Source of the DNA: Cyathus striatus
Lineage: Eukaryota > Basidiomycota > Agaricomycetes > Agaricales > Nidulariaceae
DNA length: 64,000 bases
NCBI GenBank assembly: GCA_025738555.1
Contig: JAOVFP010000022.1
Location: 2,070,448 to 2,134,447, forward strand
Reading direction: 5' to 3'
Position numbers and translations under genes: made by a program. Below, one piece after another: positions 29,937 to 56,451 of the stretch. Position 1 is the first letter of the stretch. Each line of letters starts with the position of its first letter. Under the pieces are notes generated by a model. The model was not told the DNA's origin. It ran no database searches and saw only the letters and a program-made list of their open reading frames with translations.

Positions 29937-29954
29937 GGAAGTGTGAGCAGTCAG

Positions 29955-29967: not shown

Positions 29968-29968
29968 T

Positions 29969-30569: not shown

Positions 30570-30957
30570 TGTTAGGATCTCGTCCCTTTATCTTATCTAA
30601 TCACCCTTTATCATATCTTATCATCACATGATTAGTCATATGACACACAATGCAGACACCATGTGTATTAACATGCATTATTCATCAAGACTGCAGGCAC
30701 AGTACACAGTTCAGCCAGGCCTTTTACATACATTGTACATAAGTTTGCACAGTAGAAGCACAGTAGACATGCATTATAGTGTAGGCAATAGTTACATGTG
30801 ATTCCCTCATGGATAGTATTATAAATATGGTCATTTTAATTAGTTATTCTTTACTGTTGTGCTAGTTTATTCCAGACTTGCAATAAGATTCATTACTCTT
30901 TCCTTTTCTTGAGTGTTTGATTTCAACTTCGAGTATTTTGCTCATCTGTCACTAACA
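30570..30957 (+). mobile_element. Solo LTR, 388 bp, degraded TSD
   Basis: Begins TGTTAGGATC and ends GTCACTAACA, with a plus-strand ATTATAAATA. It splits copy A between QGLLS and the Walker-B-like LLDCIDC. On the gene strand the flanks are ATCAA and ATTGA, which become one 5 bp duplication if the ancestor was ATCGA and each side lost the CpG differently. The related copy G has TCGA-like sequence at the same place. Confidence 0.85.
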
Positions 30958-34787: not shown

Positions 34788-35750
34788 TCAGTTCGTGTTC
34801 GTTGGTTTGATAGGTAATTGTTCCGGATGACAGTATGTGAATCCTCGTTGGTGGTATATCAGCGGTACTCTCTCCCCTTCTCCACTTTGCAAGCGTACAT
34901 CCTCGACCCGTATAACTCGAGCAATGAATAACTCCGAGCTTACCCCTCCCCCTTCTCTTTCCCACCTCTTTGGCAATGTACTCCGTCCCTCGAGATACTC
35001 CAAGTCATGTAATGGGATAGGACCTCCTACAAGCTCACACGTTATCGCTGCTAGGGAGTCGTCTAACACAGGCAGACCGTCGGGAGAAAGTGTGTATGTG
35101 ACGGAGGAGAATGGTTCTGGGTGTAGGTCTGGCCGGGAGAAAAGATGCGCAGTGTGTGGTTGGTGCTGCGAGAGGAGGTTTATTGTCATTATTGGTTTAT
35201 TCCCCTCTTCTACATCGCTTTGCGTGGGACTTGTTGAGGTAGAGGAGGTGGAGGAAGAAGGGTAGGTGGATGCAGGAGAAGACGACGAAGAGAAAAACAG
35301 GGAAGAAGCATGACCTGATCCAAGACTAACAGCCATCCTCGACGGAATCCTCAGCGCAAATGACACCAGTGGGTAGGGGTCCATCGATATCGAGCTGAAT
35401 GAGGACAGCGTAGCACCGTGGTAGCGGCACTTGCTGTCCTTCGCATGGGGGAAGTGCGAGTGCGCACCGCGAGGCATGAGGGAGGTAATTACAGCCACTG
35501 GTTGTGCTGTTGCGCGTAGGAGGGCCCGGAGTTGGTCTTTGAGCGCATTTTGCGTGGGGCGGTAGGTCGTCGGGTGGGAATGCGATTGGTGTGAGTGGGT
35601 GGTGGAGGTGGGGGTAGTGGAGGAGGGGGTAGGTGTAGAGGGGCTGGAAGGGAGAGGTTGGGTCTTTGTTGATGCTGCAGTTGAGTAACGAGAGATAGAG
35701 AAGGAGTGAGTGGGTGGTCGGAGAAGTGAGCTGGGCCTTGTTCGCAACAT
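34788..35750 (-). CDS. Flavin-reductase-like FMN-binding split-barrel protein
   Basis: Single-exon protein of 320 aa, start ATG at 35750 (MLRTRPSSLLRPP), preferred because it gives a basic, serine/proline-rich presequence typical of mitochondrial import. The domain starts LKDQLRALLRATAQPVAVIT, followed by GATLSSFSSISMDPYPLVSF and ALRIPSRM, the FMN-phosphate region of the flavin reductase-like family. It then has PIMTINLLSQHQPHTAHLFS and AITCELVGGPIPLHDLEYL. A serine/threonine-rich insert separates the halves. Family members bind FMN and use NAD(P)H to reduce flavin or related substrates. Decayed copies of this gene lie at 40720-41000 and 44170-44860. Confidence 0.85.
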   Translation of the reverse strand: MLRTRPSSLLRPPTHSFSISRYSTAASTKTQPLPSSPSTPTPSSTTPTSTTHSHQSHSHPTTYRPTQNALKDQLRALLRATAQPVAVITSLMPRGAHSHFPHAKDSKCRYHGATLSSFSSISMDPYPLVSFALRIPSRMAVSLGSGHASSLFFSSSSSPASTYPSSSTSSTSTSPTQSDVEEGNKPIMTINLLSQHQPHTAHLFSRPDLHPEPFSSVTYTLSPDGLPVLDDSLAAITCELVGGPIPLHDLEYLEGRSTLPKRWEREGGGVSSELFIARVIRVEDVRLQSGEGERVPLIYHQRGFTYCHPEQLPIKPTNTN

Positions 35751-36435
35751 TTGTCGCGGTCCCCGTATGCGAACTCGAGACGCCTGGAGGTGGGACAGAA
35801 GCAGGTATTTGGTGTTGTTGATGGTACGGTGGATGGGCTTTTGGAACAAATATATGACAATGAAGAGGCGACGAGCGCCACGATAGAAGTTGAGACGTCT
35901 CCGTCTTGTCTCCGTCGCCATCTCCAGAGTCTCTTGAAGCTGATCATGCTTCGATCTCTTTCCGTTACTTGCACTTTAATCCCACCGGTTTCCTGCTCCT
36001 CTTTGAAACACACTTGACAGTGAATAACATAAATAAGTATTCAGATCTTAACACCCTCTAAGGCAACGTTACCTTAGAGATCTTTTCTTTCTTTTCCTAG
36101 TCTCTCGTAGCCATCATGTAGTCGCGGGCTGGTTGTGCTATATAGTCCCAAAAAGTGAAGGCCACCATGAGAAATTAATTCATTCCGCAACTTCTATTGC
36201 TCACACAGTGCTTGCCAGGAAGAGTCAGCGAAATTTTGCACTATCATTGTCTTGTGCGTTTCTTTCCTTCGCTCCGTAGCGTAGTCGCAGTCGCCGTGCT
36301 TAAAGTCTAATACGATCCTTACTGTTGTCAGTCCGTTGGAAGTGCAACTCTTACGCGCATATATGCCAGGAAACTGGAGTTGTGATGCAGTGTAGCCTAT
36401 GGTCTGATCAGAAGTTGACAGTAGTTAAGTACATT

Positions 36436-36916: not shown

Positions 36917-38130
36917 ATGCAGTCTCCTACTTACGGTTCTGTTTCTCATTCTCAACCCAATAGCCCCTTCTTTCAAGCAAGCAACTTTACAATTGATCAG
37001 GCCACGTTTAACGAAAATACCGCCGTGGATGTCAAGAAAGTCGCAGAATGTGTGTCTTTTCTCTCTCTTTTCCCCGGACCTGATATAATATCGTGATTGA
37101 AGTTGACTTCACAAGCCTTGTTATTCACCGAGTGACGTATCAGGAACTATCAGATGAGCGACAGGAGCACTTTGAAGACCTGGAAGTTCCCAGTGACATT
37201 CGAGGGTGGATTCAGAATCCAAACGATTCTTTCAGGTCAAGTCGTTTCTTGAACACCACAAACAAAGATATTCTTGCTCTGACTGGTGTCCCGATTGTGC
37301 GTTATTTCATTGACAACGAGACTCCAGGCATCAAGTTAGCAGCCCATATACTCTTTTATGAGATTCCGCTTACCGAACAATATGATGGCATCAGCGTGCG
37401 CCCGGATTGTTCGCACCGCTGGGTAATGACTCTTGCCTACCAGTTGATGGTCAACATAGACGAACTCAGGGATCCTATGGTTGCAGCCCTTCGTACGCAT
37501 CCTAGATTACCTCAACATAATTCCAAAACTCAGCTTCAAAGGCTTATTGTTGAGCCCCTTCGATATACAACTGCAAAAGGATTACTGCAAAGCGACACGA
37601 TCATGCTTGTGCTTCTTGATTGCATTGACTGCAGCAAGAACGCTCCGACTGTTGCGAGCGATATTGCGTATCTCGTTAAGGAGTTAGAGGGGTTAAACGA
37701 ACAGCCATTGAAACTCCTTGTAACTGGATTACCAGATCATACCGTCCTTTCTAAGTTTTACAAGGTTTCAATTCAGACTTCGGAATTACAACGGCCAACG
37801 CAAGTAGCCCAGCAGTTCCAGCATCCCGAGGCACCGCCTGCTCCATCTCTTTACGAGACATGGAATACATTAACTATATTACAAAAGGTGCATTGCATAT
37901 TATCACCAATGGCACTCGGAATCATAGCTGTGCGATCTACAGTGCTAGTAGGGATTGGGGTAGGTATGTATGCTTACGTGGGGGTATTGTTTTTTGGAAA
38001 GTACATGCGCTTGACGTATACAAGACCTTGGGATGTTCATGGTCGAGAGGAAACGGTGAAGAAGGATCTCCTGTTGGAGTTGATTCGTATCCCGGTGACT
38101 ATCTTACAAGCTATTGGCTCGAGACGGTGA
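36917..38130 (+). CDS. Pseudo-NACHT membrane protein, copy B (intact)
   Basis: Two exons, 36917-37049 and 37103-38130, joined by a 53 nt phase-1 intron (GTGTGT...TTGAAG), give 386 aa. Exon 1 has SPFFQASNFTIDQATFNEN, like the N-terminal motif of mushroom NACHT/NLR proteins. The body follows the NACHT pattern: KDILALTGVPIVRYF where a P-loop should be, AAHILFYEIPL, RWVMTLAYQLMVN, RLIVEPLR, VLLDCIDCSKNAPT (about residues 214-227, Walker B position) and LKLLVTGLPDHTVLSKF (sensor-like strand). Residues about 300-345 form two hydrophobic segments, then TRPWDVHGREE at 350-360. There is no GKS/GKT, so ATP binding is unlikely. I infer a membrane-anchored pseudo-NTPase. Function is unknown. Confidence 0.85.
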
Positions 38131-38594
38131 TTAGGCTAGTATAGCACGGAATAGCATTATGTCCACTTAGAGGTAGGTTTCCTTGCTTCTAGAACTGTTG
38201 AGAGTTAGCATTATATAGCTAGCACCTTGGGAAAAATGTGTTGGGACGGAGGTCACCGTCAGAAATAAATTCATGAATTTGGCGCTGCTGACATCTCAGA
38301 TCGTTTTATTCTTTCTGACAACATCGCAATCAAAGCGCACAGCCATGCTTAATGTCTACGACAATCCCATGATATTTTGACATGTGGTACTGAGCGCCAG
38401 GAGAGGACAACGATTAATTAATTATATTTATAGGCCCCCTACAGAAGCACTCTTCACCGCTGTTTGCAATCACGCCGCATTGCTTCCACATGCAGCTGTG
38501 TTTCGTACTTCTACTTTCACCGAAATTTTCTCCGCCCATATTTCCCATTCTCTGAATTTGACTACAATACGCTCGCGCTTTGAGAGGAGAGAAC

Positions 38595-39818
38595 ATGAAG
38601 TCTCCTTCTCCTCGCCCGACTGCAGTAGCCTATCACCAAGTACCTGGCTCCTTCTCTCATGCACATCACTTTAACATCGAAAATTCCACTTTTATTGACA
38701 ATAGCGGGAATGTTAAATCACTTGAAGACTGTATGCTTCAATTTATTCCTTCATCTCATCTCTAATAATGTAATATTGCGCTTAATCTAGTAAAAGAGGC
38801 CATGAAGAGAACTATTATTAAGGGGGCAAGCTCCAAAGAGATGCATCTCACCAATAGACGACGTGAACAACTTTCTGGCCTCGAACTTCCTAACGATATT
38901 CAAGGATGGTTCAGGAATCCGGATAATTCGTTCAAGACGAGCCGATTCTTGACCACCTCGAATAAGGATGTTCTTTCTCGGACTGGTGTCCTGATAGTGG
39001 AGTATTTTCGCCATAACCAAATCACAGGGCTTACGCTCGCCGCCCATATTTTATTCTATGAAGTTCCTTTTAAACCTGGAGACAAGCGCCCTGATGTTTC
39101 GCGTCAATGGGTAATCACCCTCGCATACCAGTTGATGCTGAGCATGCCGGAACTTACAATTCCTGTGCTCGAGGCTCTTCATTTGGACCCCCTAATCCCC
39201 CAGTATAATTCAGTAGAGCAGCTTCGGGACCTCATTATTCGTCCATTGCGTGCAGTCATTGAGGAGGGACTTTTTGAACGGAAAGAAATCTTGCTCGTTC
39301 ATCTCGATTGTATAGATTGCAGCAAGAATGCCTCAAGTTTAGCGTTGGACGTTGCATACCTCATTAGGGAACTGGCGTCTTTGCATGAACTTCGTTTTAG
39401 GTTTCTCATAACAGGAACACCTCAAGAAAATGTTATTTCTACGTTTCGCAATGTGCCAATCGAGATTTTGAATCTGCAACAGCCAAAACGAACTTCGCTA
39501 TATGTTGCTCAAAGTTTTCAGTTTCATGGAGTATTGGTCTTTATGAAGCAGATTCTCTTGTACTTGGCACCGCGAATAATAGTGCCATTCTTATTAATCG
39601 GAGGCATTTTATCTCTGGTTTCTGGAACTTGGAATATATTGACTTACTTCATTGCAATCATGTTAATCATCACTGTTCCGATAGTGGTACTTTCCGCATT
39701 AATATTTATACTAGTATATTGGTATCTTACTCTCACCAGGCCATGGGATCTCCATGGCCGAGAAGAGGAAGTGATATTCTACCTTACTAACGGAGGAAAT
39801 ATTCTAAACAAACTCTGA
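38595..39818 (+). CDS. Pseudo-NACHT membrane protein, copy C (intact)
   Basis: Exons 38595-38730 and 38791-39818 with a 60 nt phase-1 intron (GTATGC...ATCTAG) give 387 aa. Exon 1 has GSFSHAHHFNIENSTFIDNS. The body has SRTGVLIVEYF in place of a P-loop, LAAHILFYEVPF, WVITLAYQLMLSMPEL and LVHLDCIDCSKNASS, then RFLITGTPQENVISTF. The membrane part is longer and more hydrophobic than in B (PFLLIGGILSLVSG and a second long segment), followed by TRPWDLHGREEE. After the stop, GTAAGTACTTT...CTACAG at about 39838-39893 looks like a 3'-UTR intron, seen also in F. It lies 450 bp downstream of B in the same orientation. Confidence 0.85.
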
Positions 39819-40189
39819 TGGATGAACCAGCCACCTAGTAAGTACTTTAAATCCATCGTTACAATATCTGCCAATAGCTTGTTCCTCTCTACAGTTGTAA
39901 AGACTTTTTAAAAGTTTGAAGGTGGCTTGAAGGGTATTCAGGTTACATATATGTAATTCGAAATGAGCTACATACGGCAATCTTATTTTCAGCACGGCTG
40001 TGTTAGAGCTTTCTTACACATAAATCATGCTTACGAATTGGAGTAAATTAATTATTCGGTACTGTGCAGCCAATGTAAGTCGCAGTCCAGGGAATCTACA
40101 TCAGTCGGAAGCGACGGTTGGTACCATGTTCCTTAGTTAAAGTAAAAGTAAAAGTCGTACCCCATGAGCCAAGACTCCCTCAGCCATGG

Positions 40190-40545
40190 TCCATGGAACA
40201 TGTCTCCACCGTTCCTCTTGAGATGTCCAGGAACCAGCTCTCGCGCCGTACAGCAGGATGTGGGGGTTGGAGGGGGTAGGGAAAGGACTGGGAGCTGACT
40301 CATAGGGTACGAAGTATGATAGACGGTCCCCTTCCTACCCTCTCCTTCATTCTGGAACGATAGAGCAGGGAACACGAGTGGGAGCGAGAAGTTGAAAGAT
40401 CCTGAAGAGTTCGCAGGTTGACATTGAGCTTGCGAAGGATTATGGCACAATCTATGTGTCTTCAATCTTTGCCGTAGCCAAGTTGTATTCCACTGAGAGT
40501 GTCCCTTGTTGATTGATTCCCAACTGGGAATATGACGGGTTGAAA
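40190..40545 (+). pseudogene. Fragment of MFS transporter 5' exon
   Basis: Matches the first exon and first intron of the MFS gene at 57399 (shared GGAACATGTCTCC, CCAGGAACCAGCTCT, GTGGGAGCGAGAA, CTATGTGTCTTCAAT). It has no open frame and no downstream MFS exons, so it is a relic of a segmental duplication. Confidence 0.7.
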
Positions 40546-40719
40546 TAGGAGGAGGGGGAGATGGATGCGAAAGATTTTAAAGATTTCGAATACCTCAGTC
40601 CAAACGACACCAAGTCCGTTGACGAGCTGAACGAAGAAATCATAGACCCGGGTATCAGCGCTTTCTGCCCCTCGCGTAGTGAAGTGGCACGTGCGTGTGG
40701 TGGGATGACAAGATGCGCG

Positions 40720-41000
40720 ATCCCCATAGGTGGATATATCAATGGTACACTCTCCCCCTTTGAATAAAACGGGGGAGAAGCATCCTCGACTCAATACTGC
40801 AGTCATTCACCATCCTCGACGGAATCCCCAGTGCAAAGGCGGTGGGTGGAGGTGGAGGTGGAGTAGATGTATAGGGGCTGAAAGGAAGAGACTGGGTCTT
40901 TGTTGATGCTGCGGTTGAGTTACGAGAGATGGGGGAAAGAGTGGATGGGTGGTTGGAGAAGTGTGTTGGGCCTTGATCTTTGTCATCTCCAAGCTGATCA
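40720..41000 (-). pseudogene. Decayed flavin-reductase copy 1
   Basis: Three blocks in the same order as the gene at 34788-35750 remain: one like 34840-34910 (GGTGGATATATCAATGGTAC), one with CCATCCTCGACGGAATCC, and one like 35610-35740 (GGTCTTTGTTGATGCTGC, GAGTTACGAGAGATG). The central part is deleted and the frame is broken. Confidence 0.75.
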
Positions 41001-41684
41001 TGGCATACAATCTCCTCCCTATCGTCGAGTGCTTTTTGTTATTTATATATGACCTCTTGGACTGCGGGAATACACCTTTGTGGCTCAATTTCCTCAGTCT
41101 ATCAATTTTATCACAATACATTCGCCCTTTCAGAGATGAAATATACAGCATTCCTCTTCTCTTTCTACTGCTGTAAACTATCATCAACTCTTGTGACCAT
41201 CTCTTGCTGTCAATCGTTATAAATGTCGCAGTCGAATCCCAATGCTGTTATTAAAGTCTATCATGAATGCATGACTCCTTACTTTTTCTCATACGTTCAA
41301 TTTACAGTTTTTCCAGTTACTACTGGGTTAACGTGATTTTGCTTGTTGAAGCAACTAACAATGTGTGCGCTGAAGAATTGCTATTGTGATGAATGCATGA
41401 CATCGCACAGCGCATATCTTAAAGCTGTTTGATACTAATCTTCCATTAGGTTTCACGATATAAGCTGATCATCATTCCAAGCTTAGTACCTCATGCTAGA
41501 ATAATATTAATAGCATTTGGGACTAGCAACCAGATAAGAAACTATATTTACGACGCCAATAAATTCACACTCTGGCACTGCCATCGGCATTTACTAGCAA
41601 TCACACTGCAGTACTCATATAAAAACTCCCCATAGTTCCTCAATTTCAGGGCCGCAATACGTTTACACTTTGGGAGACGACAAC

Positions 41685-43344
41685 ATGGAGTCTTATCCTT
41701 CCACTCCTGTAACCCAACAACAATCATTCGGCTCCTTCCCACATGCACATGACTTTATCGTCTCCAACTCCACTTCTATTGACAACTTCAGTGGAAATAC
41801 CAGATCAATTGAAGAGTGGGTGACTCTCCACAACGTCTGGAATGGTTTCCAGAGCCAGATTTCAATTCAGACTCGTTAAGCCGAGATGCCGTTGCTAAGG
41901 TACGTGAATAAGCGACACTTTCATACTCAGCAAGACGAAGCCACCCGGTTCCAAACTTTGTTGTAGACATCGCATTTTTGCCTCTCAGACGACTTTCAAC
42001 TCAATTTTACTGTCCGCGGCGGCTTGGAAACACTTTTTTTTCCCCTCCACTTTCAGACACGCTCTAGGAGCACTCTCAGACAACTTTCACCTCAATTTTA
42101 CTGTCCGCGGCGGCTTCTTTCCAGATGCGTTGTGGTTTATCAGACCACATTTTCAAACTCCACTCTTCGGAGTTTTCCGTCAGGAACATGTCTGCAACGG
42201 TGTCTGAAACTTCAGACCGTTGTGGAGAGTCACCCAGTGTACATTTTAAAATCTTCCCTCCTTTTCCTCCAATTTACGATGATTGTTAATCTAGTGGGAA
42301 AAGAGAGAATGAAGGACTATACTATTAAGGGTGCGACCTTCAAGGAGATAAAACTTACTCCTCGAAGAAGACACCAGCTCTCTGTCCTCGAAATTCCTAG
42401 CCATACGCAAGAATGGTTTGTGGCCCCCAATAATTCATTCAAGACGAGTCAATTCTTGACCACGTCCAATGTGGATACCCTTTCACAGACTGGTGTCCTG
42501 TTTATGCGCTACTATTATGATAACAAGAGCACGATATCAGGCATTACACTTCTATGAAATTCCTTTCACACTTGGACGTACATGCCCTGATGTTTCACAC
42601 CATTGGATAATAACTCTCGCTTACCAACTGATGGAAAGTATACCGGAATTAGAAGCTCCTGTGCTCAAAGCCTTCTATTCAGCACAGCAGTACAATTCAG
42701 AAAATCAACTTCAATCACTTATTATTGGTCCCTTGCGTGCTCTCATTGAGGAGGGACGACTACAGACAAGGACGGAGATCATGCTCATCTATCTCGATTG
42801 CATAGATTGCAGCATGAATATTCCAAACTTAGCTTTTGATATCGCCCACTTAATTAAGGAATTGGGGTCTATAGGCGAGCTTCGTTTCAGATTTATCATA
42901 ACAGGAATGCCTCATGAATATGTTCACTCCACATTTCACAATGTGCCCATCAAGATTTCAGATTTGCAGCAGCCAAGAAGAACTTCGCTATATTATGATC
43001 AAGGGATTCAGCTTCCCATCGACGTAATCATTTTCGGACGGGTGATGTTGATAGTGGTACCAAGTGGAGTAGCATGCTTAGCAGTCATACACATCCTCTT
43101 TGAGCTTCAGCGCTGGATGCGAGTAAATGAACAGGGCTGGTTTACTTTGGTCATATTTTGGTTATCCTTTGCTATCATGCTCGGGATATTCATTCCTATA
43201 GGGTTACTATTATTTTATTGGTATATTAAATTCACCAGGCCATGGGATGTTCATGGCCGAGAAGAAGAATTGAAATTCCATATTAAGTTCGCTGTACTGT
43301 TACCGACTCTTCGTGGAAATTCCACTGGAGAACTAGTCACCTAG
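41685..43344 (+). pseudogene. Pseudo-NACHT copy D, broken by TIR element and deletion
   Basis: Exon 1 begins at ATG 41685 (FGSFPHAHDFIVSNSTSIDN). A 418 bp TIR element (41818-42235) sits exactly at the exon-1 donor site. The original acceptor (GTTAATCTAG near 42290) and exon 2 remain (GKERMKDYTIKGATFKEI). In exon 2 a 17 nt deletion near 42550 removes the AAHILFYE coding stretch and shifts the frame. Downstream the family sequence continues in another frame (MLIYLDCIDCSMN, membrane segments, TRPWDVHGREEEL) to 43344. Both lesions disable it. Its closest relative is F. Confidence 0.9.
41818..42235. mobile_element. MITE-like TIR element, 418 bp, TSD AGT
   Basis: The left end is GGGTGACTCTCCACAACG and the right end is its exact complement in inverse order (18 bp perfect TIR, extended imperfectly to about 25). 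It is flanked by AGT on both sides (41815-41817 and 42236-42238). It encodes nothing. Inside, a block of about 40 bp (AACTCAATTTTACTGTCCGC) is duplicated at about 41990 and 42080. A 3 bp duplication and GGG-start TIR recall PIF/Harbinger-type elements, but AGT is not their usual TWA, so the superfamily is open. Confidence 0.85.
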
Positions 43345-43829
43345 TTAATAAATACCTTGGATTCAAACTGTTATAATTCTCTTAAGCCTTTTACCCCTTT
43401 ACAGTTTTAAAACTTTCAATGTCTAAAGTGAAGAAGCCAGTTATAAGAACTACAGCGTGTGACGATCCTATTTACCAGTAGAAGTTTGTTGATAGATACG
43501 AATCAAACTTGAGACTTTCGATTCGCAGTCACCCAAGTTGTGGTTTGCATAGGCTTTTCTGTCCAACGCAAATACTCTCTGGCCAGTCAAATTTGAGTCA
43601 TATTCATGCATCTAGCGCCTGTTACACCATAAACATTGTTTGATCTATACGCTATGTCCTCGCTCTCTCGTTTTACAGCTATATTTTCTCCAATAGTCAA
43701 TCATTAATCAATCTAGACAGGAGGACATTCAGCTATACCATTTCTGTCTCCTTCTCCACCGCATCCCTCCACTTCCTACACTTTTCCTCCTCCTGCTTCT
43801 CCTTCACCCTTGAACGATGAAACGGGGGA

Positions 43830-44165
43830 TACGAGTGGTAGCGAGAAGTAAAGAAGCTAGAGAATTCGCAGGTTGGGGTTGAGCTCCCAGGGGATTATGG
43901 CATACTTGATGTAGTTGTATGTCGCTAGCACCGAGGACGTCCTTTGTTAATTCATTGCCAGGTGGAAATATAACAGCGTTGAACAAGGAGACGGGGGAAA
44001 GATGGACGCGAAAAACTTTGAAGATTTTGAAGATTTTAGTGTATATAACGTCAACGGGCCTGAGTCCGTCGACGAGCTGAACTAAGGAACCATACTTCGT
44101 TGTATCAGCGCTTGCTGTGCCTCGCGCGGGTGGAGTGGCGAGTGCATGTGGTGGGATGACAAGAT
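43830..44165 (+). pseudogene. Second copy of the MFS-fragment block
   Basis: Matches 40380-40690 (GAATTCGCAGGTTG, GGATTATGGCA, ATGGACGCGAAA versus ATGGATGCGAAA, GACGAGCTGAAC). The open frame seen in the first block ends here at TAA, which argues that neither is a gene. Confidence 0.6.
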
Positions 44166-44860
44166 GCGCAATCCTCGTAGTACCCTCTCCCCTCCTTGGA
44201 GATTAGAGAAGAACCGTCCAGTACTAGCAGTCACCCGTCATCGCGTCCTCCTCTGCGCAAAGGACACTAGTGGGTAGGGATCGAGTTGAATGAGGACAGC
44301 GTTAGCTCTGAGGTAGCAGCACTTGCTTTCCTTCGCATGGGGAAAGTAGGGGTACGTGTCACGCGGCATGAGGGAGGTTACAGCCACTGACTAGTCTGTT
44401 GCACGGAGAGTCCAAAGTTATTCGTTGATCGCATGTTGAGTGGGGCTGTGGGTCGTTGGGTGGTGTGCGCTGGTGTGAGTGGGTGGTGGTAGTGGAGGGG
44501 TTAGATGTGGAGGGAGAGACTGAGTTCTTGTTGATGCTGTGGTTGAGAGAAGGAGTGACGGTGAGTGGTCGGAGAAGTGTACTAGGCTTGTTCGCAACAT
44601 TTCGTCGCGGTCCCCGAATGCGGTGAACCGTGGCGTGGCGGGGCAGCCGGGGGGCCTCAAGCGGGCGTTTGAGGTACGGTGGATGGGCTTTCGGAACAAA
44701 TAAGTGACAATGAACTACGAAGAAGCGCCGAATGCCGTGTGATTAATTGATTGTTGACGTCAAGTTGACGTTGAAACTACATAAGTTGAAACGACTTCAG
44801 AGTCCAAGTTGCTCATGGCACGTATTCTCCTTCCTGTCATCGAACACTCCTCTAAATGAT
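44166..44860 (-). pseudogene. Decayed flavin-reductase copy 2
   Basis: Longer relic than the one at 40720. It retains parts matching the 3' end, the centre (AGTGGGTAGG, GAGGACAGCG, CTTCGCATGGGG, GCGGCATGAGGGAGG) and the 5' end (GTCGCGGTCCCCG, GGTACGGTGGATGGGCTTT) of the gene at 34788-35750 and its upstream. Multiple indels abolish the frame. Confidence 0.8.
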
Positions 44861-46216
44861 CCTTTTGCATTGCTTTCTATTCGCATAAGGCCTATTAGCG
44901 TAAGACGACACCCGGGACTGCCATGGGAAAACTGAAGAACTAGGATCAGTAACACTATAGTAGCGGAGTCTCAACATGCCGATTAATTTCCATGGCTTTG
45001 CCAGGACGTTGAAAGTATAGATCTTCCAAGTTACTTTTGAATAACTTGTGCATGATGCACCATTGCCTATGATCTACATACTTATTGCTTATCTTATTGT
45101 AAGTACTCACGTTATACTGCGCAGTTAGGGTTGGCAGTGTTCACTTTGATTACCAGCTTGATCGTGTTCATTACAATGCCTTCTAAGTTTCCGTTATTCA
45201 CTGAAGTTACGGCGTACAAACACGCTCTGTCCGCGTGTTCTCAGGGATAATGCTATGCTTATCTTATTGTACCCGTGCAAGTTATATTTCCCCAGATACA
45301 GTACCAGTTTTGTGTTCATCTTTGAAACACACTTGCTAGTAAGTAACATATTCAGACACTAACATCTTCTAAGCTTTCCAACTTGCCTCGCAGTCCACAT
45401 ACGCTTACTGATTATACCCTCTTTCTAGTTCTACAAGTCGAACTGAGATCAAGGTCGCCATGATAAGTAATTTCATTTCCGCGATTATTGATCACTTGAG
45501 GCTTGGGAATCAGCGAAATATGGCGCTGTTGATGGCTCAGATCGTCTCTGTTTGACTTCGTTCTGTGCAACATCACAATCGTTGCGCTTAATGTCTACGA
45601 CGGTCCCTTTGAAGTACGACTCTTACATGCGCATATTCCAGGAAGTTAGAGGTGTGATGTAGTAGGTCTATGGCCAAAAGTTAAATTGTTATTGTAAGCA
45701 GTTAGATTCAACTGCGTAGTGCTACTATTAAGGTTCACTATAATTAAGTAGCAACTTGATTAAGTTTACAGCGGCTAAGCCATTTACAAACACGTTGTTT
45801 CCACATATATTGTCTCGGAGCCTTCTTGTACGAGACAGACAAGTTTTGCTGTACGGAGCACACCTCATTCTTTTGCGGTACGTTGGTCACCACTCTCTTC
45901 TAACGTGGCGCGCCAATGACACGTCTAATATCTGCCCAGAACAAAAATCATCTCCTAACTTTTGACTATAAGTTTCTCAGCAAGGCCGAGCATGCTTAAA
46001 ATTAGGAACATTGTAATATAGATTCGATCAATTAGCAGTGTCCACTGTCCCCTAATAGAAGGAAGCACTCTCCACTGCTGTTGGCAATCACACCACATTG
46101 TTTCCACCCTGCACGACTCGGCGTTTCTTATTTGTACGAACACCCTAACTTTCCCCGCTCATATCCTCAGTCCCTCAATTTGACCGCAATACGCTTGCCC
46201 TTTGGTAGATGACAAC
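44861..46216. other. Duplicated non-coding flank of copy E
   Basis: No gene. Contains at least two diverged copies of the upstream block described at 36436, and a segment at about 45440-45660 (TCAGCGAAATATGGCGCTG, TTAATGTCTACGAC) that matches 38260-38370 and 36170-36330. Confidence 0.6.
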
Positions 46217-47441
46217 ATGCAGTCTTCCTCTTCCCGTTCTACCGAATATCAGCTACCTAACTTCTCTCATTCACATCACTTTAACACTGAAAACTCTACT
46301 TTCATCGACAACAGCGGAAATGTCAAATCACTTGAAGACCGTATGCTTTAAATTCTTTCTTCCTTATCGTTACTAGTGTAATCTTATGTCTAATTTAGTA
46401 AAAGAGGACCTGAAAGAAACTGTTATTAAGGGTGCGAGTGCCAATGAGATGCAACTCACCGATCGACGACGTGAAAAGCTCGCTGGCCTCGAACTTCCTA
46501 GTGATATTCAACAATGGTTTGAGGACCCGGATAATTCATTCAAGACGAGCCGATTCTTGACCACCTTCAATATGGATGTTCTTTCACAGACTGGTGTCCT
46601 GGTGGTGCAATATTTCGGCCAAAGCCAGATCCAAGGAATTACGTTAGCAGCTCATATTTTATTCTACGAAATTCCTTTTCTGCCTGGAGAGAGCCGCCCT
46701 GATGTTTCAGGCCATTGGGTAACCACTCTTGCTTACCAGCTAATGCTGAGCATGCCAGAACTCACTATTCCGGTGCTCGAAGCTCTTCATTTGGATCCTC
46801 TAATCACCCAGCATAATTCAGTAGAGCAACTTCAGGCCCTCGTTATTCGACCCTTACGCGCAATCATTGAGGAGGGACATTTTAAACGGAAGGAGATCTT
46901 GCTCATTCATCTTGATTGCATAGACTGCAGCATGAATGCTTTGAGCTTAGCGGCCGATATCGCCTACCTCGTTAGGGAACTGCAGTCTTTACACGAACTT
47001 CGTTTCAGGTTTCTTATAACAGGAACACCTCAAGAAAATGTTCGTTCTACATTTCGCAATGTGCCAATCGAGATTTCAGATTTGCAACAGCCGAAACGAA
47101 CTCCATTATATGTTGCTGAAAGAATTCAATTCCGGGGAGAATTAATCATTATGAAGCATGTGCTCTTTTCTGCGGGAAAATTCACAGTATCATACTTCTT
47201 TTTCGTAATCTTCTTCTTTCTGGTATTTGGTTGGAATGTATTGGGTTACCTCATAGCATACATATTACTCATGACTGTCCTGTTGGCGGTATTCATCACA
47301 CCAATATTTGTGTCAGCATATTGGTATGTTAAATTGACCAGACCATGGGATGTCCATGGCCGAGAACATGAAGCGATGTTCTATATTGCTATAGCTGTGG
47401 AGTGTTCAGAACGTCCGCAACGAGAGCGAGTACTTACGTAG
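46217..47441 (+). CDS. Pseudo-NACHT membrane protein, copy E (intact)
   Basis: Exons 46217-46340 and 46399-47441 with a 58 nt phase-1 intron (GTATGC...ATTTAG) give 388 aa. Exon 1 has LPNFSHSHHFNTENSTFIDN. The body has SQTGVLVVQYFGQ at the P-loop position, LAAHILFYEIPF, WVTTLAYQLMLSMPEL and LLIHLDCIDCSMNALS, then RFLITGTPQENVRSTF. Two strong membrane segments follow (SYFFFVIFFFLVFG and a second hydrophobic stretch ending IFVSAYWYV), then TRPWDVHGREHE. Copy E is closest to C across the body but differs in the membrane part. Confidence 0.85.
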
Positions 47442-47649
47442 TACATAGTATTAGGTTGGCCTATTTACACTGGCTCCACTTCCAGTTACTAGTCTGGAAG
47501 TCGAACCGTCTAGTATCATGATTTTTGATGCCTGCATTAGTATTCAGTATGACCTCACTTGTAATACATATAATTCTCTCAGCATGCTAATAAAACCATG
47601 TATTCGCCTTGGAAAGTAGCAAGATACACTCAACAAAATGTATTATACG

Positions 47650-47990
47650 GTAACCCAGCCCGCACACTCCCCCAACGCCTTTGATTCTTCCTTCAGACAT
47701 AAATAATAGTCATGTTTCCCCTCCGATGAGACAAAATCACTCTCGTCATCTTCGTGAACAATTCCTTCACGACGTCCGATTGACAAGATTAAGGTTCGAA
47801 GGACCCGTCTTCGCATGTTGCACTGGAACAAAGTTCATATACACTACATAAACTTCACGGGCCGAACACACCCCTTGCATGCCTGTATCACCTCTTCCTT
47901 CATCTCACTCACCAACATTTCGCATCCTGGAATATCCTACTTAGGATTTCCAGCATATTTTGGACCATGCTGTTCGTGGCTGATTCCAAG
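47650..47990 (-). pseudogene. Fragment of SET-gene 3' end
   Basis: Matches the last exon of the SET gene at 50663-51260 (CCGATGAGACAAAA, AGACGAC-like block, CCGATTG, AACTTCA-GGCC, ACGCACC-like block, CATCCTG). It lacks the SET core and has frameshifts. It lies upstream of copy F, as a neighbour fragment within the array. Confidence 0.7.
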
Positions 47991-48096
47991 TTACCTTAGT
48001 CCCGAATGCGGTCATGTCAAAAGCAGTGTCGACATGGCACCACACCCCAATTCCTCAATTTACCGCAATACGTTTACACTTTGGGAGACGACAAAC

Positions 48097-49338
48097 ATGG
48101 AGTCTTCTTCTTATCCTTCCACTCAGCCTGTAACCCAACAGTAAGCATGTGGCTCCTTCCCACATGCACATGACTTTATCGTCTCCAATTCCACTTTTAT
48201 CGACAACAGCGGGAATACTAGATCAATTGAAGACTGTATGTTTAATGTCCTCCTTCCTTCTTCTCCAATTTAGAACGATTGTTAATCTAGTGGGGAAAGA
48301 GAGAATGAAAGACTATATCATTAAGGGTGTGACCTTCAAGGAGATTCTACTCACTCGTCGAAGAAGAGATCAGCTCTCTGTCCTTGATTCCTACCCATAT
48401 GCAAGAATGGTTTACGGACCCCGATAACTCATTCAAGACGAGTCTATTCTTGACCACATTTAATATGGATATCCTTTCACAAACTGGTGTCCTGTTTATA
48501 CACTATTATTATGCTAAAAAGAACACGATCTCAGGTATTACACTCGCTGCCCATATATTATTCTATGAAATTCCTTTTACACTTGGTTCTAAACGCCCTG
48601 ATGTTTCAAACCATTGGATAATAACTCTCGCTTACCAACTGATGGAAAGTATACCAGAGCTAGAAGCTCATGTACTCAGAGCTCTTTATTCAGCACACCA
48701 GTACAATCCAGAAAATCAGCTTCAATCACTTATCATCAGGCCCTTGCGTGCTCTCATTGAGGAGGGACAACTCCAGACAAGGACGGAAATCATGCTTATT
48801 TAATTGCATAGATTGCAGCATGAATACTTCAAGCTTAGCTGTTGATATCGCTCATTTAATTAAGGAGTTCAAGTTTATAGGCGAGCTTCGTTTCAGGTTT
48901 ATTATAACAGGAATGCCTCATGAACATGTTCTTTCTACATTTCACAACGTGCCGATCAGGATTTCAGATTTGCAGAAGCCAATACGAACTTCGCTATATG
49001 ATGATCAAGCAATTCAGCCTCCCATCCACGGAGTCATTTTGAAACAGGTGTTCTTGTCGGTGGCACCATTTGGAGCAGCATGCTCAGCAGCTGGGAGCAT
49101 CCTTTTTCTTGTATCGAAAGATCAATATCCCCTGGTTCATCTGTTCATACTGTTCCTTTTATTGATTGTCGTCCCTTCCAAAGTGCTCGGCCCTATAGTG
49201 TTACTATTATTATATTGTCATGTTAAATTCACCAGGCCGTGGGATGTTCATGGCCGAGAAGCAGAATTGGAATTCCATGTTAAGTTCGGTGAACGTCCGA
49301 CTCTTCGTGGAAATTCTATTGGAGTCTTGGAGAACTAG
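48097..49338 (+). pseudogene. Pseudo-NACHT copy F, stop plus two frameshifts
   Basis: Exon 1 starts at ATG 48097 but carries a TAA after TQPVTQQ (D has CAA at the equivalent site, a single C-to-T). The motif GSFPHAHDFIVSNSTFIDNS follows. Exon 2 shows a 2 nt deletion near 48390 (after LSVL) and a deletion of about 5 nt near 48803 at the Walker-B region (MLI then NCIDCSMNTSS in the next frame). The rest is family-like: RFIITGMPHEHVLSTF, two membrane segments, TRPWDVHGREAEL. The 3' flank has GTAAGTACCTT...TTTACAG, a probable 3'-UTR intron. Confidence 0.88.
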
Positions 49339-49758
49339 TCACCTAGTTGGTAAGTACCTTGCACACAGAGTGTCATGGTTTACTTATGCCGTTTCTCCCT
49401 TTACAGCTTTAAAGCCATTCAAAGTCTACTGTTGTCTAATGGTCAAGATGCCTTTGGACTCTAATTATAATAATTACGGCATGCGACGACTCATCCTGTT
49501 TACCAGCAGTTTTGTTGTTAGATGTGAATCAAATTTGAGAAATGGAAAGAATACCTCTGTGAAATCGTTTTTGAGCTGCGGGTGAATACCTTTCGGCTCG
49601 CAGTCACCCAAGCTATGGTTTGCATATGGGCCATCAAAATTATTTAGTATATATACTATGGTGCTCGCTTTTTCGCATTTTACGACTTTTGGATAATGAT
49701 CACGCCTTCTATATTCAATCACACCCGTTACTAGTCACTTTTGATATACCTAGGTTAG

Positions 49759-50464
49759 TGTTAGGGATACGGTATATTTAACTATCTATAGAGTCCTTAC
49801 GTGAATACTCGCCCTCTTTTCTTCTATTTTTTCTATTTTTCACTTTGTATTTCATTTCGCAGCTGCGCTGCTCAATGCCACGTGACGTTTTATTATGTAG
49901 GCCGAGACCGTTAAAGAACTGGAAGTGAGTAGAAGGCTCTCGAGGTAACTAAATAGATAACATAAGACTTGAAGAATATTATACAGACTACGTGAACATT
50001 CTAGTTAAATTAGCAAGTATATGTATAAAAGAATGTGTAGACAGACTGAATTTACAATCTCTTTTCGCACAATTATTACTCTGTCAGATTTGACAACCGT
50101 AAGAACCAGGAACTCGACTTAAGGCTTCGCGCTAAGTCTCGTGGTGTTGCTAAAAAGGGTATCATAGTATAGTACTATCTACTCGCTACTTCATACTATT
50201 ACTGTATTGTCGATTACTGAATACAACTGCTATTCTAATCGGCGGTAGCTCGTGACGCTCGTGACTAAATTGGTTGACCTACGCTTCGAAAACCCGACTC
50301 TTTACTATTTGGTACGCTTATTCTTACTCTTTCGCCCGTACACGCCTCAAGACCAAGTGATACAAGGGTACGTTTCTATTTTATATAAGTGTACTTACAT
50401 TACGTGTATTCACAGGAATACACCAACGCTTGTAGTTCACAGGAACCACAATGTGCCAACAACA
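49759..50464 (+). mobile_element. Solo LTR, 706 bp, TSD GTTAG
   Basis: Begins TGTTAGGGATAC and ends TGCCAACAACA, flanked by GTTAG at 49754-49758 and 50465-50469. A TATAAAAG at about 50034 gives a plus orientation. No coding domains. Confidence 0.9.
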
Positions 50465-50662
50465 GTTAGTGAAATTCTACATCACTATCCAGGCTTGTTC
50501 GCGTGCCTCAGTCATATTTGTTGAATGTTCACTCCTCTTTCGCTATGTCGCCCTGTGATCCCGACCCCTTGGAAAACAGCAAGAAACTTTACTATAACAG
50601 CAATTACACTGAAAAAAGTCACCAAGTCGAACAAGCGTATTACAATTACAACCCCAGCCCGC

Positions 50663-52139
50663 TCACAACCACGGTGCGTTCAATTCTTCCTCCAGACGCA
50701 CATAATCATCATGTTCCTCCCCCCGATGAGACAAAACCACTCTCTTCGTCTTGGCCAACAATTGTTTCATAACGTCCCGATTGTCAAAATCAAAGTTTGA
50801 AGGAACCGTCTTCACATGGCGCACCGGAATAAAACTCATGTACATAAACTTCATGGCCCGAACGTACCCTTCGCACGCCTGCATCCCCTCTTTCTCCATC
50901 TCACGCACCAAGCATCTCGCATCCTGAAATATCCCACTTATTTCTAGCATTCCTCGGGCCATGTCTGTGGTTGATGTAGGAGTGTCAGCATGAAAGTGGT
51001 TGAAGAGCCGTTGCTCAATCGAGGTGACGCGGCTGGCCATTGTTGTGCGGGATGTGTCTGATGCGAGTGTTGGCGAGAGACAGGGGGGGCAACGGCAAGT
51101 AATACCATAGGGCTTCAGCATGGCGCTGCGGTTCACATAGGCTCGTTCGACGCCTGCATATGCATAAGTGATTTCTTCGCCTTCGGAGATGGGGCGTGCT
51201 GCGCGGAATTGAAGGGAGAAAGAGGGAATGTCGAATATCGTGATGACGTTCGGACAACAACTAAAAGGTTGGAAATTCAGTCTCATAGTAAAATAGTACT
51301 GTGGAATAATTCACCTATGATTTATCCTAGAGCAATCTTTCATGATAACACTATACGATTCCTCGTTGTCTCTCACAATTCCCGGGACGTTGAAATTCTC
51401 ACTATAGGCATTAGTCGACATGATACCCATCAAACGCCACTTCTCCTCCTCACCCTCCAAACGAGAATTATGCAGCGCATAGAAATGAGCTTGATTCTCT
51501 TTCGTCAACTGATTGACGACGAGCTGAAAGATGGCTTCGGCTATATCATTATGGGCTTCTTTATCATTCTGAACCTCACGAAGCTCTCGAATATGAGAAT
51601 CATTAATACATACGAGGAGAGGTCTCTCGGCGATGATCAGGTCACCAGTATTCAGAGCGCGGGTCGCAAACATTCCAAGTCCCATACAATTCGTTTCGGA
51701 GATGTGGTAAGCAGGGGTGGAATTGTGTTTTATCGGAGCGGGGAACCCTGGCGTCTTGAGGATTTTGGAAACAACACGGGGTGTGAGTAAGCATTCAGTT
51801 ATTCCATCTGTGCTCTGGAGACGACATTGAATGAGGCTGTCAGAGGAAAGGGTGCCAATGGTTGGTTGAATTAGCAAGAGTTCCGGTAAGACTTTTCGAT
51901 TGGTGAGAGATGTCGATTCTGAAGTGCTATGAGATGGAAATTACAGATTGATAAGGTAGGAACGCACTGAACGACAACACAAAAGCATCTGGATGAAACG
52001 CTGAGGAAGGTGATGAAGCAGTCGGAGGAGCTTGGTCTGGCAGAAGAAAAGTTGAACAGCGAATCGGTAAACAATTGTCATCCTCACCGCCTCCTCCGGG
52101 CTTCTTTTGGTTCTTGTGAAGCAAAAATCCGCGTCTCAT
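50663..52139 (-). CDS. SET-domain protein
   Basis: Four exons fit as 52139-52088, 52036-51968, 51918-51315 and 51260-50663, total 440 aa in frame. The catalytic SET landmarks are GLGMFATRALNTGDLIIAER at the domain start, and DCSRINHSCCPNV formed exactly across the 54 nt intron 51314-51261, then GEEITYAY. A cysteine-containing post-SET part follows (YGITCRCPPC). SET proteins of this fungal type are putative lysine methyltransferases; the target is unknown. The start ATG at 52139 gives MRRGFLLHKNQKKPGGG and needs two short introns (52087-52037 and 51967-51919). A fragment of its last exon lies at 47650-47990. Confidence 0.88.
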
Positions 52140-53679
52140 GATTGGAGTAGGACAGGAACGCAGTAGAACTAGAGGAGAGAGACAAAGAGCACGAAGAGCT
52201 CTCTACAGATACCTTTGCCATAAGTATAACATCCTGAGTCAAAAGTTTAGCACGTTGAGCGAAGTCTTGCTATAATAGAAGGTGTCATCGGTGGACAGGG
52301 GCTGCGAAGCAGCAACAGCTTCAAACAATCTTGGGTTCCTGATGATCGTTGTCATTAGTATATAGACTTCCGCTCGCCGCGTGTCCCCAGAAGTCACGGA
52401 TAAGAATGCCAGTCGAAGGGAAGAGAGTGTGAACGGCTGGAACGGAATATAGACAACGACGAGTGCGAACTCGAATGTCTCAACTCGACATATAATCCCA
52501 GTATCCAAATCGGCTATGCCAGCAAGAACCCTTATCTGCAGTGACCAGACTTAGTTCGGAAAACGTTTGAACGCGGTAGATGCTGCTAAAGACTGAACTT
52601 GCTCCTGAGACACCGAAAGGCTTTCCTACTACTGAACAAGGGTCAAAGGACGAAACATTAGCAAAAGATTCGACAAGTGAAGAGGCCAGACGTGTTTTGC
52701 TCTTTCGAAATGTTTCTCACTCACTCCCTGTCATGCCCATTTCCGTCAACGACCTCATCTACTCCGCTAGCTCCTGACACAGCAGCCAGTAGGCCATGGA
52801 TCTCGCTGCCCTTCAAGCTTCAAGCTTCAAGTCTCCAAAGCACTCTTCAGTCCATTTCACCCCAATTCCCATCCCCAGACACTCCATACATACGTAGCCC
52901 TGAAACACTCAACCCCCTCTGCCACTGCCAGGACCCGGCTACCTTGCTCAGCTGCTCAGCTTCGGGGAGATGAAGTGTTCTTGGAATATACGTGTTTACA
53001 TTAACTATTTTTCATTCTAAAACATGTTGGAATCAAGCAGGAACAAGGAGGAAGAGCTGAACTTTGTTGAAAATGTTGCGAGCGATGATCGATCCGTCCG
53101 CGTCAGGGACCGTCACTAGCTCTGAGACGATTTGCTGTTGTTGATACTTCAGGGAGTGTTCATCTCATACAAACATAATCTTCTGACGCCTTGTGTTTCC
53201 CATTTCCATAGCAATCGACAACAATCGATTGAACTATAGCTCTTCTGCTCGGTTTACACTGTAACATTCCAGTTGAAGCAACCTGGAAAGTGACATCCAG
53301 TGGACACTGGATGCAGATATGACAACGATATGATACCCAAATCATGTAGCGAATTGGTAAACCGCATTGAATCCTAGTACTAAGTAATACTAATAGTAAG
53401 TATTATGGTCTAAAGAGTTCTACTAGTTTCTAACTGCGCAGTGCTGTAAGTTCTATTACTAATACTAGGGTTCGCTATACATAATTAGTAGGTTGATCTT
53501 AATCATTTTAATTTTTACAGCACCTGCTGTATTATTCACTCAAGTCAGACTCATTGTTCCCACATGCTGCACTGGTTCGCTCTTTTAATTGTCTTCGTAC
53601 TAGTTCGTAGAAGCTACATCTACCCAGACGCAGTATCCATTTTCTAACCTCCTCTGAAACACTCTCGACAGCTGGTAGC
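52140..53679. other. Intergenic region
   Basis: Open frames at 52239-52508 (minus), 52580-52777 and 52677-52973 (plus) have no recognisable motif. From about 53440 the sequence is the duplicated upstream block of the pseudo-NACHT array. Confidence 0.45.
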
Positions 53680-54925
53680 ATGCAAGCTCATTCTTCTAAT
53701 CCGACACCTCAACCCCAGTCTTATCTCGGCTCCTTCTACAATGCACACCATTTCGATATCCATAATTCCACATTCGTCGATAATAGCGGAAATGTTAGGA
53801 AGCTCGAAGAATGTGTGTCTTATATTCATTCCTTCCTACCTACCTACCTAACGTTGCATGTTTAGTAAAGGTAGATTTGAAGAATACTGTGATCCAACAA
53901 GCGACCTACGACGAGCTATCCAGGAAGCGGCGTGACCAGTTCGACAGCCTCGATATTCCGGAGGATATTCAGGAATGGATTCAAAACCCGCACTTTTCTT
54001 TCAAAACAAGTCTATTCCTAAAATCCGTAAATAAAGATATTCTTTCTCTTACTGGTATCCCGATCGTGCGCTTTTTCCGTAACAATGTGACACCAGGAAT
54101 TCGGCTAGCTGCACATATCCTCTTCTACGATATTCCAATTACAGAAGAAGGGAAAATTATCAATTCGCGTCGGAACGTCTCGCACCGCTGGGTTACGACC
54201 CTCGCTTATCAGCTGATGCTGAACGTACCGGAGCTCACAATTCCTATGCTCGAGGCTCTTCATTTGGATCCTAGAATCCCGCAATACAATTCAGAGCAAC
54301 AAATTCAGAAGCTCATCATATACCCTATGCAGTCTGTAATTAGCCAGGGGTTGTTGTCGAGTGATGAAACCAAACTCATTCTTCTGGATTGTATTGATTG
54401 CAGTACGGATGCTCCGTCTATAGCAAATGATATTGCCTACCTTATTGAACAACTGGAAGCTTTAGACAGGCAACCGTTAAAACTAATAATTACTGGATTA
54501 CCAGATCACCAGGTACTTTCTACGTTCTTCAAAGTACCGATTCAAATTTTGGCTTGCGCTGGCCAAAACGAGTTACCAGACCTCAGGCTCAAAGCGCCCC
54601 GCCTCCCCGCAGTATTTATGAAAAGTGGAGCACGTTATCCATTTTACAGAAGAAATATTGCACAGAAATCGCAATTGGAGCAGGGACCATTGCAACTGGA
54701 GGTGTCATTTCTTTAGCAGCCGCAAGTCCGGTAATGTTATATGTCTGTGCAGGATTGGTAGGATTGGGAGTTACGGTGGAGGGATTCATGACGGCTTCAT
54801 TTTTCCTGACATATTGGAGTTTGAAGTTCTTTAGACCTTGGGATGTTCATGGCCGAGAAGAGGCAGTGAAGAGGGATATTCTGGAGATGATGGATAAGCT
54901 ATCGGTGGCCTCCTTGAATCGTTGA
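53680..54925 (+). pseudogene. Pseudo-NACHT copy G, single-base frameshift
   Basis: Exons 53680-53812 and 53866 onward (53 nt intron GTGTGT...GTTTAG) give the family protein up to KVPIQI. One T is missing in the T-run at 54546-54550 compared with A, so the frame leaves before FGLRWPKR. The downstream half (SILQKKYCTEIAIGAG, membrane segments, FRPWDVHGREEAV) is intact in the next frame and ends at 54925. Exon 1 has GSFYNAHHFDIHNSTFVDNS. The single lesion could be a sequencing error in a homopolymer. If real, it removes the membrane anchor and gives a soluble form of about 320 aa. Confidence 0.8.
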
Positions 54926-55218
54926 TGGTCTGTATATTACATAGCCTCTCCAGGAACCTGTCCGCTGTGAAGCTAGCTTCTTTGATTCAGCGTTTCTAAA
55001 TCCCACATCTACTGGTGTTTGCACAGCAAATACTGTACATGAATTAATTCGATCGGTGCTTCTATTAGGGGACGCTGTAATTCGTGGCCTTATTGTCTTG
55101 TCAACAAACACATTGTTTTCGCATGTTTATGAGTTAAAATTCACGGTACTACTAGTACGAGACAAAAACCAGCTCATGTGGTATTCCACTGGCGAAGACA
55201 TACGTTCCAGGCAGCGAT

Positions 55219-56451
55219 ATGCAAGCATCATCTTTTTCCTCTGCTACTCCCAATACTCAGCCCGCTGGAACTTTCTTTCAAGCGCATAATTTTGACATCC
55301 ATAATTCGACGTTTATTGACAACAATGAAAATATTAAAAAAGTCGCGGAATGTGTGTGAAATTGACATTTCGTCCTTCTTCAGACCTGATATACTAAAAT
55401 CACAATTGAAGTTGATTTCACAAACATTGTCATTAGCCATGCAACGTATGAAGAGTTGTACTACAAGCGAGTTGATCATTTTGATGGCCTAGAAGTTCCC
55501 AATGACATTCAAGAGTGGATTCAGAATCCTGCCGATTTTTTCCAGAGGAGTCATTTCTTGAAAACCACAAACAAAGATATCCTCTCTCTGACTGGTATTC
55601 CAATCATAAACCATTTCCTTCGCAATGTCACCCCGGGGATCAAGCTAGTCGCTCATATTCTCTTCTATGAGATACCATTTACTGCGACATATTATGGCAT
55701 CAGTACACGTCCTAATGTTTTTCCCCGTTGGGTAATGACAGTTGCCTACCAGCTGATGGTGAGCAGAAAAGAGCTTACGGATCCTATGCTCGAAGCTCTT
55801 CGTTCGGATCCTAGAATTCCCCACTATAATCCCAGAAGCCAGCTTCAAAGACTTATTGTTGAACCCTTGCGATTTGCAGTTCAACAGGGGTTACTACCGA
55901 GCGACGAAATATGGGCTGTTCTCCTTGATTGTATCGACTGCAGCACAGACGCTCCGACCATGGCGGGTGATATAGCATACCTCATTGAAGAGCTAAATGC
56001 CATAACTGGACAGCCCTTGAGGTTCCTTATAACAGGATTTCCTGATAACGAGGTACTTTTCAGGTTTCGAGAAGTCCCAATTGAAATTACGGATTTGCAT
56101 TGGCCAAAACGAACATCCCATTACAAGGCTCAAGCAGTAAAACCGCCTTCCGGAGGTTTCTCCGAGAAATGGAATTGGTTAACCGGCCCGCACAAGGTAC
56201 TCGTGCTGGTTGGGATATGCATCGTAGCGTTTGGAGGCATCAGTGCTCTTGACAATGGAGAATTGAAGCTCAAACGATTGTTTGTCGCGACAGTGCTAGC
56301 ACTCGTGATTAATTGGCCTGCAATATTACATTTTTTCAATTATCGACATCTGAAGTTATATCGACCATGGGATGTTCATGGCCGAGAAGAGGCAGTGAAG
56401 GCGGAGATCTCGTCGCGTGTTGATAGAATCATATTGGGAGATTTCTCTTAA
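55219..56451 (+). CDS. Pseudo-NACHT membrane protein, copy H (intact)
   Basis: Exons 55219-55351 and 55412-56451 with a 60 nt phase-1 intron (GTGTGT...TTGAAG, branch-like CTAAAAT) give 390 aa. Exon 1 has GTFFQAHNFDIHNSTFIDNN. The body has LSLTGIPIINHFLRN at the P-loop site, LVAHILFYEIPF, RWVMTVAYQLMVS, RLIVEPLRFAV and AVLLDCIDCSTDAPT, then LRFLITGFPDNEVLFRF. Two membrane segments follow (VLVLVGICIVAFGGI and LFVATVLALVINWPAI), then YRPWDVHGREEAV. It is closest to B in the body. Confidence 0.85.

Follow-up and report, generated by a model that had tools for sequence, protein, structure and literature searches.

A family of NACHT-derived proteins with no P-loop, a predicted membrane hairpin and a fixed RPWDVHGRE tail in Cyathus striatus

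We analysed a window of 64,000 nucleotides from the fungus Cyathus striatus, which covers positions 2070448-2134447 of one contig (JAOVFP010000022.1, here C22) of a 107-Mb assembly and ends where the contig ends. It contains eight copies, A to H, of a gene family whose products almost certainly descend from NOD-like receptors (NLRs) with the loss of the ATP-binding loop (P-loop). An earlier note, made from the letters of the sequence, had proposed eight copies with a common two-exon design. All eight are present at the locus and are laid out as a short exon 1, a phase-1 intron and a long exon 2, but the design is found as an open spliced model in only four of them (B, C, E and H; 386-390 aa, with phase-1 introns of 53-60 nt), while A, D, F and G are broken. 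The family is derived from NLRs and yet lacks the features that define an NLR, namely the P-loop, the Walker B signature, and the winged helix or repeats.

The relationship to NACHT proteins is seen when the family is compared with complete receptors. By hhalign, the family profile was aligned to eight P-loop NLRs (seven of the same genome and one of Coprinellus) over 123 columns with P 98.5%, E 3.9e-15 and a score of 111.8, while the highest score among 50 column-shuffled controls was 29.1. In Pfam, five of nine members matched NPHP3_N (PF24883) at E up to 1, the best with E 0.046. In a separate scan the scores were 12.1-13.7 bits, against the curated cut-off of 24.8, and the match spans profile positions 66/72-162 of 164, which is the second half of the domain. 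Other Pfam matches, such as Asp_protease, NCD3G and DUF7442, were weak, fell on single copies per scan and were rejected. In the genome, exon 2 of copy E matches 83 places, of which 24 lie in two clusters and 59 outside; most of the latter are long frames of NLR type, the best with E 1.7e-10, and match chiefly at query residues 100-232. When 5.8 billion proteins were searched with the family profile, the matches listed, from no more than 7996 candidates, included four C. striatus proteins and then an NLR of Coprinellus micaceus (E 3.7e-5). In this genome, at least 150 NACHT places exceed the family cut-off, with 150 of the 617 candidates scored, and a tree of the NACHT part with 21 rows did not identify the closest NLR relatives of the family.

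To describe the missing core motifs we took ten family proteins, that is, B, C, E and H of the window, four of a counterpart cluster on another contig (C16) and two of C. striatus records. It turned out that neither the P-loop pattern GxxxxGK[ST] nor the Walker B pattern hhhhD[GA]xDE occurs in any of the ten, and that all ten carry LDCIDC at the Walker B position. The NACHT-like body without P-loop, which the earlier note had aligned by eye, is thus upheld by the profile comparison and its shuffled controls together with this absence. Two AlphaFold models both contain the core of an NTPase, in which strand 1 and helix 1 are connected by a three-residue turn in place of the P-loop, and in a MAFFT alignment the strand 2, Walker B and sensor-1 segments are in register with NLRs. 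The structure matches of the models include MalT, Avs3 and CED-4, as expected for the proposed STAND fold, among many ORC/Cdc6 chains. We read the ORC/Cdc6 matches as the fold common to AAA+ and STAND proteins, because the sequence points to NACHT. The winged-helix/HETHS region is absent, since in both models 18 residues separate strand 5 from the start of the hairpin helix, and no C-terminal repeat family was matched in Pfam by the family proteins. The sequence, the phase of the intron and the two predicted folds support the proposed origin from a STAND or NLR protein, the loss of the ATP loop and the membrane hairpin. Kept are the exon with the N-terminal motif and the first half of NACHT; the ATP loop and the parts behind the core are gone.

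Behind the body, all ten proteins have a hydrophobic stretch directly before the tail. The two membrane segments claimed for the family are separate in eight of ten, while B and the public protein P0005 have one longer stretch with overlapping segments; before residue 270 there is no 17-residue window above 1.5 on the Kyte-Doolittle scale. Both models show two long helices here. The nine-residue tail is the best-kept block of the protein, with a mean pairwise identity of 0.91, compared with 0.82 for strand 2, 0.72 for the Walker-B-like segment, 0.27 for the variable end behind the tail and 0.21 for the hairpin. The hairpin fits an anchor, because its sequence varies while its hydrophobicity stays, and the invariable tail that follows would suit docking. 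This tail, reported before as RPWDVHGREE, proved to be confined to the family in this genome: its pattern occurs at 14 places of the assembly, all within the window cluster or its C16 counterpart, and the reversed pattern at none. A query of hairpin plus tail against the 5.8-billion set gave one candidate and no scored match, by a method limited to proteins that are close to the query in length and have short words in common with it.

The exon-1 motif, roughly G-[ST]-F-x-x-A-H-x-F-x-I-x-x-[SA]-x-F-x-D, links the family to intact receptors. NLRs of this genome have similar motifs N-terminally, as has the Coprinellus NLR, and the closest ones belong to NLRs with C-terminal hydrophobic stretches (L027 and L056-L060, on C11 and C17), which we located through L027 in the match list of copy E and call membrane NLRs. 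Scored against membrane NLRs, the motifs of the family reach a mean of 44.4, and against other NLRs 22.7. Five of the six membrane NLRs have an intact P-loop, in frames of 705-750 aa, and the six carry 2-4 hydrophobic stretches that are separate from each other, and of which some could hold more than one helix. The intron phase of the family recurs in five of six membrane NLRs, which by eye have the splice T|GTGAG with a split Leu codon (T|TA). Within the family, the split codon encodes Leu in four copies (C, E, G and D', the C16 counterpart of D), Phe in B and H, and Val in J, a further C16 copy. Unlike the family, membrane NLRs keep NACHT plus the region that follows it, and by eye their C-terminal ends contain no convincing RPWDVHGRE. 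When the last part of L027 was used as a query (324 aa), 11 of 36 matches extended past residue 140, representing nine gene places, eight on C11 and one on C17. The hairpin had been described as a gain of the family; it is present, but its gain is uncertain, because the NLRs with the most similar exon 1 already carry C-terminal membrane segments.

A composite exon-1 probe, typed by hand and biased toward such motifs, found 27 places in the genome: 15 in the clusters, 7 beside membrane NLRs (two by coordinates only), 1 beside L061 and 4 beside other frames. L061 (C2:201.1-202.3 kb) is a short NACHT gene whose exon 1 is very similar; its P-loop is intact and its Walker B altered. Behind it lies a frame with hydrophobic segments, and one copy of the gene was found in the genome. 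We rejected it as an intermediate: its NACHT part is no closer than others, and by eye we found no splice to the hydrophobic frame behind. Besides, similar motifs stand ahead of non-NACHT frames in L062 and L063 (C2), L064 (C14) and L065 (C18); by eye the downstream frames of L064 and L065 are alike, as are those of L062 and L063, and the scanned pieces of L062-L064 had no Pfam match.

We tentatively favour, at somewhat less than even confidence, the reading that these proteins are NLR-derived pseudo-NTPases which sit in the membrane as partners of ATP-competent NLRs; they may act as a decoy, an inhibitor or a membrane arm of NLR immunity. The body and the tail would face the cytosol, because both ends of the hairpin lie on one side and basic residues flank it, and the hairpin would be an anchor only. 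The tail may dock one conserved partner, and the exon-1 motif may pair with this motif in NLRs, most of all in the membrane NLRs. Because no ATP binding is expected, a family protein could not drive assembly itself and would hold or tune NLRs at the membrane. A passive partner or decoy is the more likely role, and a receiver of the NLR signal at the membrane the less likely one.

Several observations weigh against this view or parts of it. Of the eight copies in the window, half are broken. The stretch that hhalign aligns with confidence begins behind strand 2, and the replacement of the P-loop by a turn comes from two models, in which the hairpin has moderate confidence. Most structural neighbours are AAA+ proteins of the ORC/Cdc6 type and not NLRs; Foldseek alone gave no PDB match below E 0.001, and sequence searches of PDB with copy E and with the alignment gave none. 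No NLR was located beside the cluster in the window, among the 150 scored of 617 candidates and the matches of copy E exon 2, and the membrane NLRs lie on C11 and C17, away from it. In the NACHT tree, the family and the membrane NLRs were not grouped, while NACHT plus exon 1 grouped them weakly (88.1/59), together with the Coprinellus NLR. An amyloid nature of exon 1 is putative, the fit being one to a text description.

An alternative is that the proteins are membrane executors or relays: activated NLRs would template the exon-1 motif, clustering of the hairpin would disturb the membrane and the cell would die, as NWD2 templates HET-S in Podospora (PMC12881547). The motif common to the family and to NLRs, together with a membrane hairpin, agrees with such a role. 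In PMC9815663, short N-terminal amyloid-like motifs are described in NLRs of Agaricomycetes, among which the group 05/08/22/29/44 is suggested to be a variety of HRAM; partners of this group are largely unknown, because Table 1 of that paper has 0 neighbour and 0 effector matches for it, which leaves room for an executor. However, no other part is as poorly conserved as the hairpin, which does not suit a pore-lining helix, the motif stands N-terminal ahead of a NACHT remnant and not C-terminal as in HET-S, no HeLo or other effector domain was found in Pfam at E up to 1, and PMC9815663 names other candidate partners, pairing its candidate motifs with BaMLKL or HeLo proteins in four species. We hold the executor to be unlikely. 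A wider form of this idea is that the family is the missing membrane-side receiver of mushroom NLR signalling, in which motif-sharing NLRs would template exon 1 and the RPWDVHGRE tail would relay the signal, a pseudo-receptor arm with a logic like that of the pseudokinase MLKL; this too has a small chance in our view.

A collinear counterpart of the cluster lies on the minus strand of C16 at about 3,391-3,436 kb. In it, D' (400 aa), G' (397 aa) and H' have open spliced models, both exons of B' are open by translation, C', E' and F' are broken (F' in exon 2), and copy A has no counterpart that we found. Past the position where C22 ends, C16 holds two further divergent copies, I, which is broken by eye, and J (C16 3390985-3392691), which is open with 549 aa. 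A glutamine/glutamate-rich repeat linker separates body and hairpin in J, and a long extra C-terminal part follows its tail. The divergence between C22 and C16 is uneven: around copies A-D (18.5-43.0 kb), 17 of the 21 bins of 500 nt that could be compared differ by 5-18%, and from 46.5 kb on all 35 bins differ by 0-1.6%. The synonymous divergence (dS) is likewise 0.157 for B and 0.147 for C, against 0.009 for H and 0.013 for G. This pattern, with copy A on one side only, is what an allorecognition determinant might leave, that is, a polymorphic, membrane-linked NLR relative by which differences between nuclei are read at hyphal fusion. The two clusters may go back to a segmental duplication, or one may be a haplotype that was retained. 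Their reading as haplotypes is uncertain, because none of six DNA probes from elsewhere in the genome (three of them repeat-rich) showed a full-length near-identical second copy, and after this result we set aside the term haplotypes for counterpart clusters. Amino-acid change is not in excess either, with the ratio of nonsynonymous to synonymous divergence (dN/dS) below 1 in 13 of 13 pairs (0.12-0.52, some pairs with saturated dS). A role in allorecognition seems rather improbable to us on this account.

The same ratios bear on a further possibility, that we see functionless, decaying NLR fragments which were spread by tandem duplication near transposons. The numbers of broken copies, four of eight in the window and four of nine on C16, speak for it, as do the elements found within copies. 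Copy A is split by a long terminal repeat (LTR) retroelement and has lost nearly all CpG (4 in 1692 nt, against 57 in a 1281-nt region of G); 48 of the 177 differences between A and G are CpG transitions. Copy D is broken by an inverted-repeat element at the border of exon 1 and intron, plus a frame change in exon 2, while F has a stop in exon 1 (by eye) and frame changes in exon 2, and G a single frame change, in exon 2. On the other side stand the dN/dS values, the conservation of the tail between a hairpin and an end which both vary, and the open relatives of D and B in a C. striatus record. The closest public proteins are six unannotated proteins of C. striatus (E 5.8e-53 or better), of which P0002 and P0005 are full-length, open relatives of D and B, respectively; for four pairs with a matching copy, identity ranges from 80.6% (D'/P0002) to 92.5% (E/P0001). 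With dN/dS below 1 throughout, the open copies look like working proteins with frequent loss, and general decay is a doubtful explanation with a slim chance of being right.

KAP NTPases combine a P-loop domain with two membrane helices inside the NTPase domain, and some animal members have no P-loop. A KAP-like membrane NTPase unrelated to fungal NLRs, which this likeness and the inactivity of some KAPs bring to mind, is nevertheless hardly credible, given the NACHT homology and the exon-1 motif and intron phase common with NLRs, and we rejected membership on anatomy, since the hairpin follows strand 5 in both models, after the NTPase core and not inside it.

Among known systems, the family is most readily set beside fungal NACHT NLRs with short N-termini of the NPHP3_N type, with which it has in common the exon-1 motif, the phase-1 intron and the second half of the NACHT core. 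In contrast to them, it has no P-loop, Walker B signature, winged helix or repeats, ends in the hairpin and RPWDVHGRE tail instead, and stays below the Pfam cut-off; it may therefore be missed by fungal NLR surveys based on NACHT or NB-ARC. Compared by text description only, exon 1 resembles the motifs of NLR05/08/22/29/44 (PMC9815663) in its place at the extreme N-terminus, three leading hydrophobic residues and a G[DN] pair; the pair is GN in C, E, G and D and varies in B, H, I and J. With HET-S and NWD2 (PMC12881547, PMC10197012) the likeness is one of idea, a short motif common to an NLR and a membrane-acting protein, whereas the family has no HeLo domain (Pfam, E up to 1), has its motif at the N-terminus and retains a NACHT remnant. 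A catalytically inactive STAND domain as a system component is on record in bacteria, namely iSTAND of the vWA-MoxR systems (PMC7159879), which has other partners and for which no such membrane hairpin or tail is described in the available text, and fungal NLRs with altered P-loops are recorded in PMC4986451. In the open-access literature, among the matches listed, we found neither transmembrane segments in a fungal NLR nor a membrane NACHT protein that is ATP-dead, and no fungal NACHT protein in which the P-loop is deleted and a membrane hairpin and fixed tail are present; the earlier note, too, knew of no described family with this combination.

If the family pairs with NLRs, its members would be overlooked regulators or receivers. 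Together with the membrane NLRs of the same genome, they would offer further concrete candidate pairs for the N-terminal motif group of Agaricomycetes, and the nine-residue tail gives a single handle on a conserved binding partner. The coordinates of copies and inserted elements are collected in Table 1.

Table 1. Family copies and inserted elements, in window positions.
Feature	Positions	Strand	Details
Copy A, 5' part	30450-31607	-	exon 1 and start of exon 2, interrupted between ~30567 and 30959; broken
Copy A, 3' part	21761-22190	-	body end, hairpin, decayed tail; broken
Copy B	36917-38130	+	exon 1 36917-37049, intron 37050-37102, exon 2 37103-38130; 386 aa, open; tail 38023-38049
Copy C	38595-39818	+	exon 1 38595-38730, intron 38731-38790, exon 2 38791-39818; 387 aa, open; tail RPWDLHGRE 39738-39764
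Copy D	41685-43344	+	broken; tail 43237-43263
Copy E	46217-47441	+	exon 1 46217-46340, intron 46341-46398, exon 2 46399-47441; 388 aa, open; tail 47340-47366
Copy F	48097-49338	+	broken; tail 49234-49260
Copy G	53680-54925	+	exon 1 53680-53812, intron 53813-53865, exon 2 from 53866, frame change near 54550; tail 54833-54859
Copy H	55219-56451	+	exon 1 55219-55351, intron 55352-55411, exon 2 55412-56451; 390 aa, open; tail 56362-56388
LTR retroelement splitting copy A	22187-30265	-	repeats 22187-22486 and 29966-30265 (95% identity over the reported 300 nt); frames for gag and protease 27781-29738
416-bp element in copy D	41819-42234		17-bp terminal inverted repeats; absent at the C16 counterpart

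Besides the family, the window contains Helitron-type helicase frames at 1021-5466 on the minus strand (Helitron_like_N, PIF1). Between the copies lie a flavin-reductase-like gene (34788-35975, minus strand) and a SET-domain gene (50663-51310, minus strand), and partial duplicates of pieces of these two genes are located nearby, at 40.8 kb, 44.3 kb and 47.7 kb.

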